A DNA stretch of 40,011 nt, taken from positions 1-40,011 of the IMG/VR virus record IMGVR_UViG_3300021131_000017; one strand, 5' to 3'. Within the stretch, counting starts at the first letter, position 1; each line of letters starts with the position of its first letter. A model generated the notes under the pieces. It was given only the letters and a program-made list of their open reading frames with translations. It was not told the origin of the DNA and did not search any database. Positions 22,655-40,011 of this stretch are shown in pieces. The stretch is from a virus. The translations under genes were made by a program, and so were the position numbers.

Positions 22655-23644
22655 ATGGCTCAATTCATCCAATCTGCCAATACTTTAGTTAGCCGTGTTG
22701 CATCTTGGGTCGGAGCCATTGCCAACTCTACAGGCGTTAACGCTACCTCTTACACATCTTCTACTGGGGTAATTGCTACTGCATCGTCTTTGGTCGGTAC
22801 AGTTAATGTTGGTGACTTCATTGGATACAACCCTACCTACCCTTTTACGGTTGTGACGGCAATTACTTCATCGACAATTACTGTCAACGATCCTGACTTG
22901 ATTTGGAGTGGTGCTACATATCCCGTGGCAATTCTTAAACTGCCCACACAATCGGTTTTAGAGATTCAGAACTCTATTCAATTGGCAGAACTCAAGATGA
23001 GAACAGTTGAATTACCTGCTTTGCGGTCAAATCCTTATGACCCAACAAATCCTGATTATGTGACCACCAACGCACAAGGATTGGCTCCTATTCCTGCCGA
23101 CATGAATTGGCCTATTTTGTTTTTCCAACAAACACCTAATTCTGACACGCCTCCAGGCTCTGCTGCTGCCGCAATGGGTCCTTGGATTATTTATGACCGT
23201 GTTGGTGACCGTGAGATTATTCGTAGACGCATGATTGATCAGTTGTATGTCAAACCTTTTGGCGTACCAAGGGTGATTCGTGCATCATTCTCAGAAGTCG
23301 GTCCTAATTATGTATTTACGCCTAATCCTGGTGCAAATGTACAGATTCTTGCTTACTATCAAAAAACATTCCCATTCTTGTTCAGCCCCACATCTGATTC
23401 ATTGAATCCTATTGTGCAAAACAATGCGGTGTTGGCTACATTCCCTGAAGGTTACCTTTATGGTACTTTGGAAGCTTATTACGACAAGAATAAAAATATT
23501 TCTGAAGCCGAAAAGTGGAGAGCAAGATTTGAAGAGGCTTATGGCTTGATAGAAGACCAGAACTTCAAAGATAAATGGAGAGGTGGAGACCAACATCTCA
23601 CATCAGAATTCCAACCAAGAGATTACAGATATAGCTTTCGCTAG
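22655..23644 (+). CDS. Putative head-tail connector/adaptor
   Basis: 329 aa. The N-terminal about 100 residues are beta-rich (Thr/Ser/Val). The C-terminal helical end, PEGYLYGTLEAYYDKNKNIS then AEKWRARFEEAYGLIEDQNF, is the 'P-.L..G.L.-A........A..W...F...l' pattern of podovirus and siphovirus adaptor proteins that assemble below the portal. Its place right before the fibre gene fits. The N-terminal domain is atypical and could be exposed at the neck. Confidence 0.65.
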   Translation: MAQFIQSANTLVSRVASWVGAIANSTGVNATSYTSSTGVIATASSLVGTVNVGDFIGYNPTYPFTVVTAITSSTITVNDPDLIWSGATYPVAILKLPTQSVLEIQNSIQLAELKMRTVELPALRSNPYDPTNPDYVTTNAQGLAPIPADMNWPILFFQQTPNSDTPPGSAAAAMGPWIIYDRVGDREIIRRRMIDQLYVKPFGVPRVIRASFSEVGPNYVFTPNPGANVQILAYYQKTFPFLFSPTSDSLNPIVQNNAVLATFPEGYLYGTLEAYYDKNKNISEAEKWRARFEEAYGLIEDQNFKDKWRGGDQHLTSEFQPRDYRYSFR

Positions 23645-23653
23645 GAGATATAA

Positions 23654-26600
23654 ATGGCAACAGGTGGGTTATATGGCTCAAGTCTTAGCGGTAATCTTAT
23701 TGCTCAACCAGGCACGGAGTCTGTTGGACTTTATGGTAATTCTGTGCCTTATGGTGGCACTTACTTTGAATGGTTTATTTTCAAGGAAAGTGCGACTGCT
23801 CCTGCCACGCCCACGGGTGGCTCATGGAACTTTACTACAAATGTAGGCGTGCCTCCTACTGGATGGTCAACAACGCCTCCAGCAACGCCTAGCAATACTG
23901 TATGGGCATCAATTGCGTTTGTTAATAGCAAGATTGGCTCGACATTTACTTGGTCAACTCCTGCCACATGGGTTCAGCAAGGTATTTCAGGATACTCAGG
24001 TGCTTCAGGTATATCTGGTTATTCGGGTTATAGCGGTATTTCTGGCTTTTCAGGCATTAGTGGCTATTCAGGCAAGTCTGGTTATTCTGGAAGCGGTATC
24101 TCTGGTTATTCAGGATACTCTGGATATTCTGGTTCAGGTATTTCAGGTTATAGCGGATATTCTGGTAGTGGCGTATCTGGATACTCTGGATTTTCTGGAG
24201 CAAGTGGATTTTCAGGTATAAGCGGATACTCAGGTTCTGGTATTTCTGGTTACTCTGGATACTCTGGAAGTGGCATTTCTGGATATAGTGGATATTCTGG
24301 AAGCGGAATTTCTGGCTATTCTGGATTTTCGGGTACAAGTGGGTATTCTGGATTTAGTGGAACATCTGGTTATTCTGGTTCAGGTGTAAGTGGATATTCT
24401 GGCTATTCAGGTTACTCAGGTATTTCTGGTTACAGTGGCACAAATGGTTCTGGATCAGGTTCAGTAACATCTGTTGCAATGACTGTTCCTACATTCATGT
24501 CGGTAACGGGTTCTCCTATAACGACAAGTGGAACTTTGGCATTATCCGCAACAACATCAGGCGCAAATTCTATTGTTTTGCGTGATGCGAACCAAAACAT
24601 CAGCGCAAATTCTATTACTGAAGGTTTTAGTAATGTTGCTGCCGCAGGAACAACAACAGTTCTTACGGTCAGCTCAGTACCTAATTTTGTTGTAACTGGT
24701 TCTGGTGGACAGACATATCAATTGCCTGATGCGACCACTTTGGCAAATGGAACAAATTACACATTCAACAACAATCAAAGTTCTGGAACAATTGTTGTGA
24801 AGAATAACTCTGGCACAACAATTACTACGGTTCAATCTGGTGCTTTTATAGAAGTTATTTTGTTGTCTAACGCAACCGCAGCAGGTTCTTGGGATACACA
24901 TACTTTTGCGCCTTCCAATGTATCTTGGTCAACCAATACATTAGATTATCCAGGATCAATCACTTCAGCAACATGGAATGGAAGTACTGTTGCTACTAAT
25001 CGTGGTGGTACTGGATTAACTTCATTTACTGCAAATGGAGTAGTGTATGCGTCTAGTACAAGTGCTTTGGCTACTGGTTCAGGATTAACTTTTAATGGAA
25101 CAACATTTAGCACAACCAATGATGCGTCTATTAACGGGGTAACTGTTGGTAAGGGTGGTGGTAATCAATCTTCAAGTACAGCTTTAGGTGTCGGTACTTT
25201 ATCTGCAGATACTGGAGGTTTTTCTGTTGCTGTTGGTTATCAAGCACTAAATCTTGCTTCTGGTGGATATTCAACTGCTGTAGGCTATCAAGCTGGTGTA
25301 GCAAAAACAAGTGGCGCAGGAATTGATGCTTTTGGTTTTCAATCTTTATCAACAAATACTACGGGCGCATTAAATGTTGGTTTTGGAACTTATTCTTTAA
25401 AATCAAATTTAAGTGGTTCTAATAACACAGCTATTGGTCGAGAAGCACTCTATTCAAACTACACAGCATCTAACAACACTGCTGTGGGTTATCAGGCGGG
25501 GTATAGTAATACTACTGGTACAGATTTAGTTGCTTTAGGTTACAGAGCTGGTTATACAAATAGCACAGGAAACCAAAATACTGCGCTAGGAAACAATTCA
25601 CTTCAAAACAACTCTACTGGCTTTGCTTTAACTGCTGTTGGTTATTCTGCTTTAATTCTTAATACTGGTTCAAACAATACTTCTATTGGCGCATATTCTA
25701 TGCAATCCAATACCAGTGGTGCGCAAAATACGGCTGTAGGTCGTGAAGCTTTGCAAGGCAACACTTTAGCATCTGGCAATACTGCTACAGGTTATCAATC
25801 GTTATACAGCAATTCAAATGCTAATAACAATACTGCTTTTGGATACCAATCAGCTTATTCAAATGTTTCAGGAAGTTACATAACTGCGTTTGGATATAAA
25901 GCAGCTTATGCATACAATTCAACAACAACAATTTGTGCTGTTGGTTTTCAAGCTCTAGCTTCAAATACAACTGGAGCAGACAATACTGCAGTTGGAACTT
26001 ATAACGCATTAGGTGCAAACACAACTGGATCAAACAATGTTGCAGTTGGTCGTGAAGCTCTTCAAGCCAACACCACGGCATCTAACAATGTGGCAGTAGG
26101 TTATCAAGCAGGATATAGTAATACTACAGGGGGAGTGACTGCTGTTGGTTATCAAGCAGCCAAAAATAATAGTACAGGAACAGGAATAACCGCTATTGGT
26201 TATAATTCTTTACTAAATACAACTAACAATTATTCTACTGCTGTTGGATTGCAATCTGGTCAAGCAAATACCACTGGCACAATAACAGCAATTGGTGTAA
26301 ACGCATTAACATCAAATACAACTGGAGCATATAACGTAGCAGTTGGAACTTTAGATGGTGCTGGTAATGGTGCTTTAGCAGCTAATACCACTGGTGGAAG
26401 CAACACCGCAGTTGGTAGCGGTGCTTTAGCTTTAAACACCACAGCATCTAATAACACCGCAGTAGGATACCAAGCTGGGTATAGTAATCAAACAGGAACA
26501 TACTCAACTTATTTAGGCTACCAATCTGGATACAGTTTAACTGGAACAAATAACACTTTCGGTGGTGCTTTTGCAGGTGCAAATCTTACAACTGGAACTT

Positions 26601-27985
26601 ACAATACTGGTTGGGGTCATGGGACTATAAATAATTCTGGTGCCTCTACTGGAAGCGGAAGTTACAACTCAGCTTTAGGCTACGAAGCATTAAACTATTT
26701 AAGCACAGGCTCTTATAATGCCGCAGTTGGTTATCAAGCACTTAAATTCAATACCACAGCATCTAGTAACACAGCCGTTGGGTATCAGGCTGGATATAGC
26801 AATACCACAGGTGCAAATAATGTTGTTGTTGGAAAGGCTTCACTCTATACAAATTCTACTGGCGGTGGTTTAACTGCCATCGGTAACCAAGTATTACAAA
26901 CAAACACCGCATCGGATAACACAGCAATGGGTTATAACACGATGAATAACAACACCACTGGCACAATGAATACTGCTATTGGTGGTGGTCAATTTGGTGT
27001 TCTTGGTGGTTCACTATCTAGCAACACAAGTGGTTCTTACAATACAGCATTAGGACATTTGTCACTTTACTCCAACACCACAGCCTCTAACAACACTGCT
27101 GTAGGTTATCAGGCTTTATATAACGCTACCACTGCTAATTCTAATACAGCATTAGGTTATCAAGCTGGTTATTCACCAACAACTGGATATGCAAATACAT
27201 TTATAGGTAAAGCATCTGGATTTTCTACAACCACAGGTTCTTGTAATACATTAGTAGGATTTGGTTCTGGAAGCACAATAACCACAGGAAATGGAAATAC
27301 TTGTATAGGTGGCGCTTTCAATACTACTGGAGCTGGTTCAGCAATAACAACTGGTTCATACAACACAATTATTGGTGGCTACACAGGCAATCAAAATGGC
27401 TTAGACATCCGCACCTCTAATGGATATATTGTTTTAAGTGATGATTATGGTAATCCTAGAGGAGTATTTGAAAATAATGGTAATTTTTTAATAGGACAAA
27501 CAAGTAGAGGTTTAAGAAATTCAAATTCTTTTGATTTTGATATATCAGATGCTTCTGGTTACTTTAACCATGTAAGCGGAACATCATCAGGCTCTGCTTT
27601 TATATATTTTGGATATAACGGCTCTTCTATTGGTTCAATTACACAAAATGGCACAACAGGCGTTCTTTACAACTTAACATCTGACTATCGCCTTAAAAAC
27701 AATCCAGTACCCGTAACAGGTGCAAAAGAATTTATTATGGCTTTGCAACCTAAGTCATGGGATTGGTGGGATGGGTCAGGTAAAGGCGTAGGATTTATTG
27801 CCCACGAATTTATGGAAGTTGCCAAATACTCTGGTCATGGCGAAAAAGATGCTGTTGATGCAGAAGGCAAACCAGTTTATCAAGCTATTCAACCATCAAG
27901 TTCAGAAGTTATGGCAAATCTTGTCGCATTAGTACAAGAACTTACCGCAAAAATACAAACCCTTGAAACTAAACTAGGAGCATAA
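23654..27985 (+). CDS. Giant tail fibre: collagen-like stalk, YadA-like head repeats and S74 chaperone
   Basis: 1443 aa. Residues 1-109 form a likely virion-attachment domain sharing a module with the 562-aa fibre gene. Residues 110-270 are G-X-S triplets (GYS, GIS, GFS) broken regularly by an extra GS pair. About 270-490 is beta-rich. About 495-1240 are many 14-residue YadA/Hep-type repeats (NTAVGYQA, NTTGSNNTAIG), which form left-handed trimeric beta-rolls in bacterial adhesins. The end, residues 1343-1443, is a Peptidase_S74 intramolecular chaperone: SDYRLK with the catalytic Ser1343, GFIAHE, and a final coiled-coil helix (ALVQELTAKIQTLETKL). Autocleavage before Ser1343 is predicted after trimer folding. 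Confidence 0.92.
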   Translation: MATGGLYGSSLSGNLIAQPGTESVGLYGNSVPYGGTYFEWFIFKESATAPATPTGGSWNFTTNVGVPPTGWSTTPPATPSNTVWASIAFVNSKIGSTFTWSTPATWVQQGISGYSGASGISGYSGYSGISGFSGISGYSGKSGYSGSGISGYSGYSGYSGSGISGYSGYSGSGVSGYSGFSGASGFSGISGYSGSGISGYSGYSGSGISGYSGYSGSGISGYSGFSGTSGYSGFSGTSGYSGSGVSGYSGYSGYSGISGYSGTNGSGSGSVTSVAMTVPTFMSVTGSPITTSGTLALSATTSGANSIVLRDANQNISANSITEGFSNVAAAGTTTVLTVSSVPNFVVTGSGGQTYQLPDATTLANGTNYTFNNNQSSGTIVVKNNSGTTITTVQSGAFIEVILLSNATAAGSWDTHTFAPSNVSWSTNTLDYPGSITSATWNGSTVATNRGGTGLTSFTANGVVYASSTSALATGSGLTFNGTTFSTTNDASINGVTVGKGGGNQSSSTALGVGTLSADTGGFSVAVGYQALNLASGGYSTAVGYQAGVAKTSGAGIDAFGFQSLSTNTTGALNVGFGTYSLKSNLSGSNNTAIGREALYSNYTASNNTAVGYQAGYSNTTGTDLVALGYRAGYTNSTGNQNTALGNNSLQNNSTGFALTAVGYSALILNTGSNNTSIGAYSMQSNTSGAQNTAVGREALQGNTLASGNTATGYQSLYSNSNANNNTAFGYQSAYSNVSGSYITAFGYKAAYAYNSTTTICAVGFQALASNTTGADNTAVGTYNALGANTTGSNNVAVGREALQANTTASNNVAVGYQAGYSNTTGGVTAVGYQAAKNNSTGTGITAIGYNSLLNTTNNYSTAVGLQSGQANTTGTITAIGVNALTSNTTGAYNVAVGTLDGAGNGALAANTTGGSNTAVGSGALALNTTASNNTAVGYQAGYSNQTGTYSTYLGYQSGYSLTGTNNTFGGAFAGANLTTGTYNTGWGHGTINNSGASTGSGSYNSALGYEALNYLSTGSYNAAVGYQALKFNTTASSNTAVGYQAGYSNTTGANNVVVGKASLYTNSTGGGLTAIGNQVLQTNTASDNTAMGYNTMNNNTTGTMNTAIGGGQFGVLGGSLSSNTSGSYNTALGHLSLYSNTTASNNTAVGYQALYNATTANSNTALGYQAGYSPTTGYANTFIGKASGFSTTTGSCNTLVGFGSGSTITTGNGNTCIGGAFNTTGAGSAITTGSYNTIIGGYTGNQNGLDIRTSNGYIVLSDDYGNPRGVFENNGNFLIGQTSRGLRNSNSFDFDISDASGYFNHVSGTSSGSAFIYFGYNGSSIGSITQNGTTGVLYNLTSDYRLKNNPVPVTGAKEFIMALQPKSWDWWDGSGKGVGFIAHEFMEVAKYSGHGEKDAVDAEGKPVYQAIQPSSSEVMANLVALVQELTAKIQTLETKLGA
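23981..24464 (+). repeat. Degenerate tandem repeats encoding G-X-S stalk
   Basis: About 480 bases of repeated nine-base units encoding Gly-aromatic/aliphatic-Ser triplets. Synonymous changes are frequent (TCA/TCT/AGC/AGT for Ser), so the repeats are related but not identical. They can recombine to change stalk length. Confidence 0.9.
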
Positions 27986-27986
27986 A

Positions 27987-28313
27987 ATGTCAACAACTTA
28001 CACGACAACCATAAAAACCATGTACACAGTCCCCAACCCAACGGGATATGTTGTCAATGTCGTTTTTAAAGTAGAAGGTACTGATGGTACGCATACTGCT
28101 GAAATATATGGCAATATCCAGTTCACACCAGAGCAAAATGAGCAAGGATTTATTCCTTATTCACAATTGACTCAAGCAGAGGTATTAAATTGGATTAACG
28201 AAGCAACCAATAACCAACAGAATTATTACGATAACATCAACGGACAAATTCAGTCCATGATTACACCTCCAGTTTCACCTTCAGCACAAACATTACCTTG
28301 GGCAACTAACTAA
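27987..28313 (+). CDS. Small fibre-associated protein, 108 aa
   Basis: Follows the fibre by one base. Beta-rich N-terminus (TYTTTIKTMYTVPNPTGYVV, NVVFKVEGTDGTHTAEIYGN), then a short helix (TQAEVLNWINEATNNQQNYY) and a Pro-rich end. Such proteins accompany tail fibres in aquatic phages (DUF7936-like) and may be fibre accessories or chaperones. Function is not proven. Confidence 0.65.
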   Translation: MSTTYTTTIKTMYTVPNPTGYVVNVVFKVEGTDGTHTAEIYGNIQFTPEQNEQGFIPYSQLTQAEVLNWINEATNNQQNYYDNINGQIQSMITPPVSPSAQTLPWATN

Positions 28314-28479: not shown

Positions 28480-29166
28480 ATGGAATTGCATTGGTTAAGT
28501 GAAAGAAGTGCAGAAGCACAAGAACTGTATAACGAAGTCATTGTTACCAACTGTTACGGATTAACAGAAGAAATCTGTAAAGACCGTGAGTTTATAGATA
28601 TAGGCGCAAATATGGGGATGTTCTCTATATTTGCATCTAGTCTAGGAGCAAGCAAGGTTATAGCAGTAGAACCCGTATCTTCTACGGTTGAAATGCTCAA
28701 AGACAATATTGAGCAATCAAAATTAGACATTTCTGTTTTACAGAACATTGTTTCTGATGTTGGGGGTGAAATGGTCAAGATTGGGCTACAACCCAAGTCT
28801 GGCCACAATAGCGTCTACAGTCCCAGCGACAGTTTTGAGAAAGTCAAAACCATCACCCTCAAAGACTTGCTAGACATGACCACTAGCGACAATGTCTTTT
28901 TAAAGATCGATTGCGAGGGTGGCGAATACGACATTCTGCTGAATGCCGACAATCTAGACAGAGTCACCACGGTGGCCATTGAAATCCACGCTGATCTCCA
29001 CCCCAACTTCCACGGTGCTTGGCATATCCATGAGGTTTTAACTAAGTTTGGGTTCAAGCCTGTCGTCCAGAATCAAATGAAGTCATGGCGGTACGATGCT
29101 TTTGGCCAGCCATTTGACATCAAAAACCTCCCTGTTTCTGAAGAGATATGGGTGAGACATGGATAG
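28480..29166 (+). CDS. FkbM-family SAM-dependent methyltransferase
   Basis: 228 aa. The SAM-binding loop EFIDIGANMGMFSIFA (about 37-52) and VIAVEPVSST (about 60-69) are intact. The FkbM signature LKIDCEGGEYDIL (141-153) contains the conserved Asp and Glu. FkbM enzymes usually O-methylate sugars. It overlaps the glycosyltransferase by 8 bp, so the two are made together, just downstream of the fibre. Substrate: a glycan on the virion or on the host surface; which one cannot be told from sequence. Confidence 0.9.
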   Translation: MELHWLSERSAEAQELYNEVIVTNCYGLTEEICKDREFIDIGANMGMFSIFASSLGASKVIAVEPVSSTVEMLKDNIEQSKLDISVLQNIVSDVGGEMVKIGLQPKSGHNSVYSPSDSFEKVKTITLKDLLDMTTSDNVFLKIDCEGGEYDILLNADNLDRVTTVAIEIHADLHPNFHGAWHIHEVLTKFGFKPVVQNQMKSWRYDAFGQPFDIKNLPVSEEIWVRHG

Positions 29167-30130
29167 TATTCTCTGCTCCATCGGAACCAGAGGCCGATAC
29201 GACACTACCCTACCTCTGGCATTGGCTGCCATCATCAATCAAACCAGAATCCCCGATAAAGTCGTTATCTTTGATGACAACGACAATCCAAGGGATGTCC
29301 GTGAGGAATTGATCTATAAGAATCTATTTCAGATGATGGACTTAAAGAACATCGAATGGGAATGGGTTTTTGCTCAAAGACACGGCACCCACTGGAATCA
29401 CCAAGCTGCCAACATCATGGGCTACAAATGGGTTTGGAGAATGGACGATGATTGCATCCCAGAACCCAATGTCCTCAGAACCTTGTTAAGCTATGCTATA
29501 CGCAAGGACGCAGGAGCCGTTGGAGGTTCTATCCTTACCCCACCCCTCACATTTGAGAATACTCGGTCTACAGGGCGTATAGAAGACATTAACAACGAAC
29601 CCAACGCCCAATGGAAAGTCATCCAAAAGGAGCAAGAAGTCGAGCACCTTCATTGTTCTTTTGTCTACCGTGCTGGGGTTTATGACTACAACATAGGTTT
29701 ATCTAGGGTTGCCCACCGAGAAGAAACCTTGTTCAGCTATGGTTTACATCAGAAGGGCTACAAACTTTATGTGATTCCTGATGCGATTACTTGGCACTTG
29801 AAAAACCCAGAAGGTGGTATTCGGTCAGAAACTGATGAGTCACTTTACTTACATGATGAGCAAATCTTTGCAAATTTCATGCAATACCGTGACCATACCA
29901 TAGTGGTATTGAACTGCGGTTTAGGAGATCACATTGTTTTCTCTAAGATATTGCTTGAAATCAAGAAACCTTTGGTATTCAGTTGCTATCCTGACATTGT
30001 GCCTGGTCATGCCATTGCCCATGCCGAACGTGGATTTGGCAGTATTGACCAATGGAATATCTATTTGAAAATGTCCCAATGGGAATGGAAGGGTTCGCTA
30101 GAGGACGCTTTCAGAAAGTTGTACTTATGA
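29159..30130 (+). CDS. GT2-like glycosyltransferase fused to the N-terminal half of a GT9-like domain
   Basis: 323 aa. Residues 1-235 form a GT-A fold: MDSILCSIGTRGRYDTTLPL start, donor-site Asp40 region (VIFDDND), and the DxD motif RMDDDC (94-99) for metal and nucleotide-sugar binding. After about residue 240 a second domain begins: TIVVLNCGLGDHIVFSKILL, the 'GLGD' start motif of GT9/heptosyltransferase-like Rossmann domains. It ends after about 80 residues with a stop overlapping the next gene, which looks like the matching C-terminal half. Overlaps the FkbM gene. Confidence 0.8.
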   Translation: MDSILCSIGTRGRYDTTLPLALAAIINQTRIPDKVVIFDDNDNPRDVREELIYKNLFQMMDLKNIEWEWVFAQRHGTHWNHQAANIMGYKWVWRMDDDCIPEPNVLRTLLSYAIRKDAGAVGGSILTPPLTFENTRSTGRIEDINNEPNAQWKVIQKEQEVEHLHCSFVYRAGVYDYNIGLSRVAHREETLFSYGLHQKGYKLYVIPDAITWHLKNPEGGIRSETDESLYLHDEQIFANFMQYRDHTIVVLNCGLGDHIVFSKILLEIKKPLVFSCYPDIVPGHAIAHAERGFGSIDQWNIYLKMSQWEWKGSLEDAFRKLYL

Positions 30131-30564
30131 TCATCATCAGCCCTTACTCAAAAGCCCTTAGAAACGGCAAAGAAAATCCTAAGAACTATCCCTATTGGCC
30201 AGAAGTCTTAAAAGACATCAAAGAACCTTGCGTTCAGATTGGCATTACTGGTGAAAAACAATTGTGTGAAGATTTCAGAACAGACTTGAGTTTTGATGAA
30301 CTTAGGTTACTCCTCAAGGAATGTCGCACTTGGATCAGTTGTGATTCGTTCTTTCAGCACTTTGCTTGGAAAGAAGGTAAGCCTGGGATTGTCATCTTCT
30401 CCCGTTCTGACCCATTGATCTTTGGCCACCCAGAAAATGTCAACCTTCTTAAAAGCAGGGATTTGCTGACTCCTTACCAATTTATCACTTGGGAAGAGCA
30501 AGAATATGTCAAAGAGGCGTTTATTGAGCCTAGCGAGGTCATAAAAGCGTTGGAATTATTCTAG
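30127..30564 (+). CDS. C-terminal half of a GT9-like glycosyltransferase (separate gene)
   Basis: ATG 30127 overlaps the previous stop as ATGA, giving 145 aa. MIIISPYSKALRNGKENPKN opens a second Rossmann half (the usual P-x-S-x-x-x-R-N pattern), QIGITGEKQLC is a central strand-loop, and CRTWISCDSFFQHFAWKEGK plus VIFSRSDPLIFGHPEN match the donor-binding region of GT9 proteins. Together with the end of the previous protein it would rebuild a complete GT9-like fold. A longer reading from 30052 would overlap by 79 bp and is not preferred. Confidence 0.65.
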   Translation: MIIISPYSKALRNGKENPKNYPYWPEVLKDIKEPCVQIGITGEKQLCEDFRTDLSFDELRLLLKECRTWISCDSFFQHFAWKEGKPGIVIFSRSDPLIFGHPENVNLLKSRDLLTPYQFITWEEQEYVKEAFIEPSEVIKALELF

Positions 30565-39808: not shown

Positions 39809-40008
39809 AACGCTTGATATGCTTACTTTTCCTGCTTTTGTGTTCATGTTCTGATCAATATAGATACAAATGCCAAGATTTTGATCACTTTCAAGACCCT
39901 GAGTGTCAAAAACCCCGTTGTCTGTTTACCCAGATTTGCCCTGAATATTTAACTGCGCCTGTATTGGAGAAACAAGTTGAACAACAAACTAACAGCAGAA
40001 GAAATTGA
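39805..40008 (+). CDS. Small Cys-rich lipoprotein
   Basis: 67 aa starting with ATGA overlap. A signal-like stretch MKRLICLLFLLLCSCSDQ has a lipobox-like LLCSC, predicted lipid site Cys15. The mature part has four further Cys (KCQDFDHFQDPECQKPRCLF, TQIC), possibly two disulfides, in the periplasm. It ends in the terminal repeat and overlaps the TTG start of the 165-aa membrane gene (32 bp after circularisation). Small lipoproteins in such lysis or late clusters may be spanin-like or exclusion factors. Confidence 0.65.
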   Translation: MKRLICLLFLLLCSCSDQYRYKCQDFDHFQDPECQKPRCLFTQICPEYLTAPVLEKQVEQQTNSRRN

Positions 40009-40011
40009 AGT
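39913..40011. repeat. 99-bp terminal direct repeat (right copy)
   Basis: Exact copy of 1-99. Joining the two copies gives a circle of 39,912 bp in which the lysis cassette is continuous. Confidence 0.95.

Follow-up and report, generated by a model that had tools for sequence, protein, structure and literature searches.

How collagen-like rods that lack proline and hydroxyproline stay folded has yet to be settled; glycosylation is one of the proposed answers, and the question is raised again by the phage tail fibre described here. The window analysed in this work is the whole of the IMG/VR virus record IMGVR_UViG_3300021131_000017 (40,011 bases), in which positions 23654-27985 (+ strand) form an open frame of 1443 amino acids that takes up 10.8% of the genome, in agreement with the single gene of about 11% reported in the original prediction, which was made from the letters of the DNA. 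This frame is a real, modular tail fibre gene, with a virion-side N-terminus, a stalk, a linker, a head made of repeats and an S74 chaperone (Table 1). What is new in it, relative to the literature that we searched, is the stalk, a proline-free run of Gly-X-Ser (GXS) triplets; the string GYSGYSG had no occurrence in that literature, whose coverage is incomplete. Such stalks are linked to a downstream sugar-modifying cassette, which the original prediction overlooked and which we rate as the most informative feature of the locus.

The stalk of the window fibre (residues 110-266) has Gly at every third residue, as in collagen-like proteins, over 47 triplets (23 GYS, 11 GIS, 5 GFS, 2 GAS, 2 GVS, 2 GTS, 1 GKS and 1 GTN), with seven internal breaks that are each one residue short. 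The X and Y positions rich in Pro or hydroxyproline that also characterize collagen-like proteins are missing, the proline count being zero, and the Pfam Collagen match (54.6 bits) is driven by composition. The triplet stalk with Tyr, Ile or Phe instead of Pro at X was thus correctly anticipated, whereas the GS breaks, said to recur every 8-14 residues, are fewer and less regular: they lie at residues 146, 160, 171, 194, 205, 216 and 242, after a first block of 36 residues and with spacings of 14, 11, 23, 11, 11 and 26 residues. Because the Gly and Ser codons vary freely along it, the stalk is neither a product of chance nor of fresh slippage, and DNA slippage was discarded as the origin of the breaks. 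A loose 33-bp tandem period is still present in the stalk DNA.

A degenerate pattern search of IMG/VR recovered at least 120 GYS-type stretches. Over 287 distinct stalks the X position is occupied by Tyr (43%), Ile (20%) or Phe (13%) and the Y position by Ser (93%), and Pro represents 0.5% of the X and Y positions across the class. Breaks are present in 211 of these stalks and follow a rule, in which a triplet with an aromatic X precedes 519 of the 541 scorable breaks (mean 59% and maximum 65% in shuffles) and an Ile/Val/Thr triplet comes after 462 of them (shuffles: mean 30%, maximum 36%); furthermore, breaks less than two triplets apart are nearly absent (7 observed vs about 94 expected). 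As these break counts are inflated by the relatedness of the stalks, they were also scored per locus, and 52 of 75 loci keep to it in 75% or more of their own breaks. According to these data, proline-free Gly-(Tyr/Ile/Phe)-Ser stalks with stereotyped register breaks constitute a class among environmental phages. No matches were obtained in cultured phages with the stalk sequence as query, probably through the low-complexity masking of BLAST. The strict GXS pattern, which recovers roughly half of the GXS loci in viruses, matched in one of 694 bacterial genomes, and this match consisted of a simple DNA repeat located where a contig ends, so that the stalk was rejected as a cellular feature. Very large GXS proteins were observed in L219, L176 and L206; the frame of L219 (4096-12238, - strand) is 2714 residues long and includes two stalks, of 209 and 188 triplets, and a stalk of 311 triplets occurs in L176. 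Environmental phages also have a sister class whose Y position is Thr (GYT/GIT triplets; loci L140, L148, L157, L169, L185 and 22 others).

The cassette includes a glycosyltransferase of the GT2 family, whose homologs were found at 41 of 95 GXS-stalk phage loci and at none of the 84 that lack such stalks, in counts where most loci are fragments and related phages enter more than once. When loci were sorted by stalk class, GT2 was present in 41 of 97 GXS loci, 0 of 27 sampled loci of the Thr type (GXT), 0 of 14 of the classical Pro/Thr/Gln/Ala type and 0 of 41 with no stalk, and it reached 30 of 48 among GXS loci with at least 2 kb of downstream sequence. A search of whole records found it in 13 of 36 further GXS records, some of them from phages of 120-192 kb, vs 0 of 36 controls. 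Counted by contig, with L164 taken as GXS for the stalk that it carries, GT2 is present in 50 of 87 GXS contigs and in 0 of 83 that are Thr-type, classical or stalkless (Fisher test, about 1e-19). The association also holds in the reverse direction: among the best 80 of at least 568 GT2 loci, every one of the 31 that have 4 kb or more of upstream sequence carries a GXS stalk, and so do all 15 of the nucleotide clusters that they form. Another five GT2 loci, for which 3-4 kb of upstream sequence is available, show no stalk; their sequence ends short of the distance at which the stalk lies in the window.

The sole cultured phage with this GT2 (61% identity) is the Methylophilaceae phage P19250A, in which a 1201-residue gene with 278 GXS-stalk triplets is immediately followed by the methyltransferase, the GT2 and the half-GT9 genes of the cassette, with gene order and overlaps as in the window. 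P19250A encodes tape-measure and J proteins and the window does not; as a phage of another type thus has the same cassette after a GXS gene, the linkage is independent of lineage. It could be argued that stalk and cassette are functionally uncoupled passengers, inherited together within a single freshwater pool of phage genes or a single group of hosts, since nearly all cases are environmental contigs, the cultured one infects a Methylophilaceae bacterium and relatedness inflates the counts. However, GT2 tracks the stalk even inside the fibre lineage of the window (6 of 9 GXS loci vs 0 of 50 non-GXS loci), and the linkage extends across the 15 nucleotide clusters and to the 120-192 kb phages, and we judge such passengers to be quite improbable. 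In conclusion, stalk and cassette are linked in both directions and across phage types, and this distinguishes GXS stalks from other collagen-like stalks of the same fibre family.

The GT2 gene of the window matches Pfam PF00535 with 36.2 bits (cut-off 23.3), and the D96-D98 residues of its acidic DXD-type motif are invariant in 11 phages. In 274 proteobacterial genomes the family gave generic matches only, of 30 bits or less, vs 300-611 bits in phages. The 8-nt overlap with the preceding gene is conserved in 51 of 55 distinct loci. That gene encodes a methyltransferase at nearly all of the 55 loci, with matches to Methyltransf_11/12/23/25 in 42 and to FkbM in 11. At 29159-30564 of the window a GT9 domain is seemingly split, its N-half being on GT2 and its C-half in a separate overlapping gene; the half-length gene scores 18.7 bits for PF01075 (GT9), below the cut-off of 22, and the fused GT2-GT9 single frame of L195 scores 31.7 bits. 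A small DUF7936 gene (27987-28313) lies directly after the fibre, with homologs at 6 of 95 GXS loci and 2 of 84 other loci.

The main rival explanation is that these enzymes modify the surface polysaccharide of the host, for superinfection exclusion or receptor masking, and travel with fibre genes in a host-recognition island. GT9 is in fact the heptosyltransferase family of lipopolysaccharide synthesis, and the host-recognition clusters of pelagimyophages contain glycosyltransferases that have been interpreted as host-surface modifiers (PMC7029224). This would leave unexplained that the linkage tracks the chemistry of the stalk and not the type of fibre or head, GT2 being absent from all the GXT and classical loci, and that every one of the 15 GT2 clusters, in unrelated phages, carries GXS. 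We regard host-surface modification as unlikely, though deserving of attention.

On balance, we consider it probable that the fibre combines a proline-free triple-helical GXS stalk with a self-cleaving S74 chaperone and that the downstream cassette glycosylates the stalk. The N-terminal module would sit on the virion in a fibre that is probably trimeric, the stalk would form the triple helix and the head a beta-solenoid, and the S74 chaperone would trimerise the C-terminus and then cleave itself off before Ser1343. The operon (methyltransferase, GT2 with the N-half of GT9, and C-half of GT9) would glycosylate the stalk, the likeliest acceptors being the serines at Y or the tyrosines at X, and methylation would cap the glycan. 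The sugars could stabilise and protect a rod that has no proline or hydroxyproline, replacing the role of these residues in collagen. The stalk is best explained as the substrate because enzymes that would add two or more sugars and one methyl group are tied to one stalk chemistry. We put forward more tentatively, as something that falls short of probable, that this is a phage-specific class of triple helix free of proline (Gly-aromatic/beta-branched-Ser, interrupted by programmed register breaks of one residue), folded or stabilised by its own glycosylation-methylation operon and moving between unrelated phages as one module.

Several points weigh against glycosylation of the stalk by the cassette. 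There are 18 GXS records of at least 15 kb without a detectable GT2, which means that GXS phages do not strictly require the cassette or that different enzymes fill its role there; unrelated glycosyltransferases are not clearly enriched beside the GT2-negative GXS stalks (5 of 108 vs 3 of 90 open reading frames), so their replacement of GT2 at these loci was rejected. Stalk composition and break frequency are nearly alike in phages with and without the glycosyltransferase, and break frequency was discarded as a mark of its presence (Mann-Whitney p=0.93). A common host or habitat could also link both traits. Finally, our observations cover the anatomy of the fibre, the stalk class, its break grammar and the linkage, and we infer the trimer, the cleavage and the stalk as acceptor.

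With respect to the head, the original prediction described roughly 750 residues of NTAVGYQA-type repeats as in trimeric autotransporter adhesins (TAAs). The repeats were confirmed at residues about 499-1240, with an autocorrelation peak at lag 17 (identity 0.33 vs a maximum of 0.157 in 200 shuffles), and match phrog_23837 of PHROGs (E 1.5e-90). They are widespread and already catalogued: 17-residue repeats are also found in proteins of roseophages, pelagiphages, cyanophages, other phages and giant viruses, and the family is shared with cellular genomes, at 72 bacterial loci that are mostly from Bacteroidota. A signal-peptide-like start and a terminal S74 are seen in many of the bacterial proteins, and repeat proteins with S74 are common in the Bacteroidota among the bacterial genomes L067-L137, the one in L108 having a type IX sorting domain that scores just under the cut-off. 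L066, L097 and L113 are short contigs of the Sphingomonadaceae metagenome-assembled genome WB4_6_108 that hold several of these repeat genes (up to 55% identity) and could be phage contigs that were misbinned.

A head that is a trimeric beta-roll of YadA type, shared with host adhesins by exchange, would account for the likeness of the motifs (NTAVG vs SVAIG), for the weak sub-threshold YadA_head matches within the head and for the sharing of repeats with bacterial genomes. However, the period is 17 and not the 14 of YadA, the best PF05658 YadA_head score is 13.6 bits (cut-off 25), and Pfam scans of the fibre revealed no YadA anchor or TAA stalk domain, the C-terminus being S74. The tested cellular relatives consist of a signal peptide, repeats and S74, with no TAA domain, which speaks against the proposed exchange with adhesins as well. 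We rejected a YadA/TAA origin and consider it highly improbable; nothing was found in support of the surface-layer mimicry that had also been suggested. In the AlphaFold2 model of residues 575-945 the head is a solenoid with strands every 17 residues (pLDDT 85, pTM 0.82). The best VIA matches of this monomer model were right-handed beta-helices, namely Vag8 (7akv; Z 19.5, 285 aligned, rmsd 3.1), phage Andhra (8egr; Z 17.6, 349 aligned, rmsd 3.7) and the tailspike of phage Pam1 (Z 16.8), and Foldseek gave no match at E<=0.001. The two VIA candidate lists contained no TAA folds, an absence that does not exclude them. A beta-solenoid is predicted for the monomer, its neighbours in those lists are not YadA beta-rolls, and we provisionally place the head nearest the right-handed beta-helices of tailspike type.

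The S74 chaperone scores 32.4 bits for PF13884 at residues 1343-1390 (cut-off 22), and the SDYRLK site supplies Ser1343 and Lys1348, both invariant in 12 aligned phage and bacterial relatives, as the original prediction of this domain and site would have it. Foldseek matched the chaperone model to 3gw6, the L-shaped fibre of T5 (4uw8) and the MyRF ICA domain (7dc3) with probabilities of 0.9-1.0. It appears to be an ordinary S74 member, for which autocleavage before Ser1343 is predicted from the sequence.

The N-terminal module (residues 1-108) occurs in many fibres with differing stalks, and in IMG/VR relatives the same N-terminal or linker modules are found with GXS, classical GPTGPT or no stalk, which shows that the modules are swapped. 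Where these modules accompany stalks other than GXS, the cassette is absent. Upstream of the fibre gene lies a terminase-portal-capsid-adaptor block, whose adaptor gene (22655-23644) matches Pfam SU10_adaptor and part of which has 74% DNA identity to the nearest annotated phage, Podoviridae sp. ctfne034 (Manatee Spring). As both ends carry one exact 99-bp direct terminal repeat (1-99 = 39913-40011), the genome is probably complete, with circularly permuted or terminally redundant ends.

Table 1. Coordinates in the window of the fibre gene, its modules and the downstream cassette.
Feature	Positions	Strand	Basis or remark
Tail fibre gene, 1443 aa	23654..27985	+	PHROG tail and virion matches
N-terminal module, residues 1-108; probably virion-attachment end	23654..23977	+	Matches of relatives over residues 1-103; fibre architectures
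Proline-free GXS collagen-like stalk, residues 110-266; 47 triplets, 7 internal GS (G1G) breaks	23981..24451	+	
Conserved linker module, residues 271-490, common to many fibres	24464..25123	+	No Pfam family found
Head, residues 499-1240; some 43 repeats, each of 17 residues; beta-solenoid predicted	25148..27373	+	
Neck preceding the chaperone, residues 1241-1342	27374..27679	+	Sequence; low model confidence
S74 intramolecular chaperone, residues 1343-1443; cleavage predicted before Ser1343, with Lys1348 five residues further along	27680..27982	+	
FkbM-type methyltransferase, first cassette gene; 8-nt overlap with GT2 gene	28480..29166	+	
GT2 glycosyltransferase, C-terminal tail resembling N-half of GT9	29159..30130	+	DDD motif invariant
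C-half of GT9-type glycosyltransferase	30127..30564	+	ATGA overlap with GT2 stop

An almost proline-free phage stalk together with an operon tied to no other sampled stalk type makes the folding of such rods a question testable in a cultured phage and its host. If glycosylation of the stalk is true, the cassette would represent a module for glycosylating virion fibres, its enzymes could serve to produce stable proline-free collagen-like materials, and the usual view of fibre-adjacent phage glycosyltransferases as host-surface modifiers would have to be revised.

Among known systems, YadA, BadA and BpaC resemble the window fibre in having short V-G-containing head repeats on a stalk, but the fibre differs from them in its period, in the lack of an anchor, in its sub-threshold YadA_head score and in the C-terminal S74. 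The S74 chaperones 3gw6, 4uw8 and 7dc3 share the predicted fold and the Ser-x4-Lys motif with it. BclA, the exosporium collagen, is a prokaryotic collagen-like protein that is glycosylated, although it is a bacterial spore protein with classical triplets and not a phage fibre (PMC8968730). The mimivirus enzyme L230, which hydroxylates and glucosylates lysine, offers the parallel of a viral enzyme glycosylating a viral collagen-like protein low in proline (PMC9614988); the window stalk has one lysine. Finally, EPclA and EPclB, from prophages of E. coli O157:H7, are trimeric phage fibres that also have a Gly-X-Y stalk between globular modules, some with a register interruption, and carry Pro at nearly half of the X positions and many charged residues (PMC3368898). 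Unlike them, the window stalk has no Pro, has Tyr, Ile or Phe at X and Ser at Y, is interrupted by G1G breaks several times over and is linked to a cassette with glycosyltransferases.

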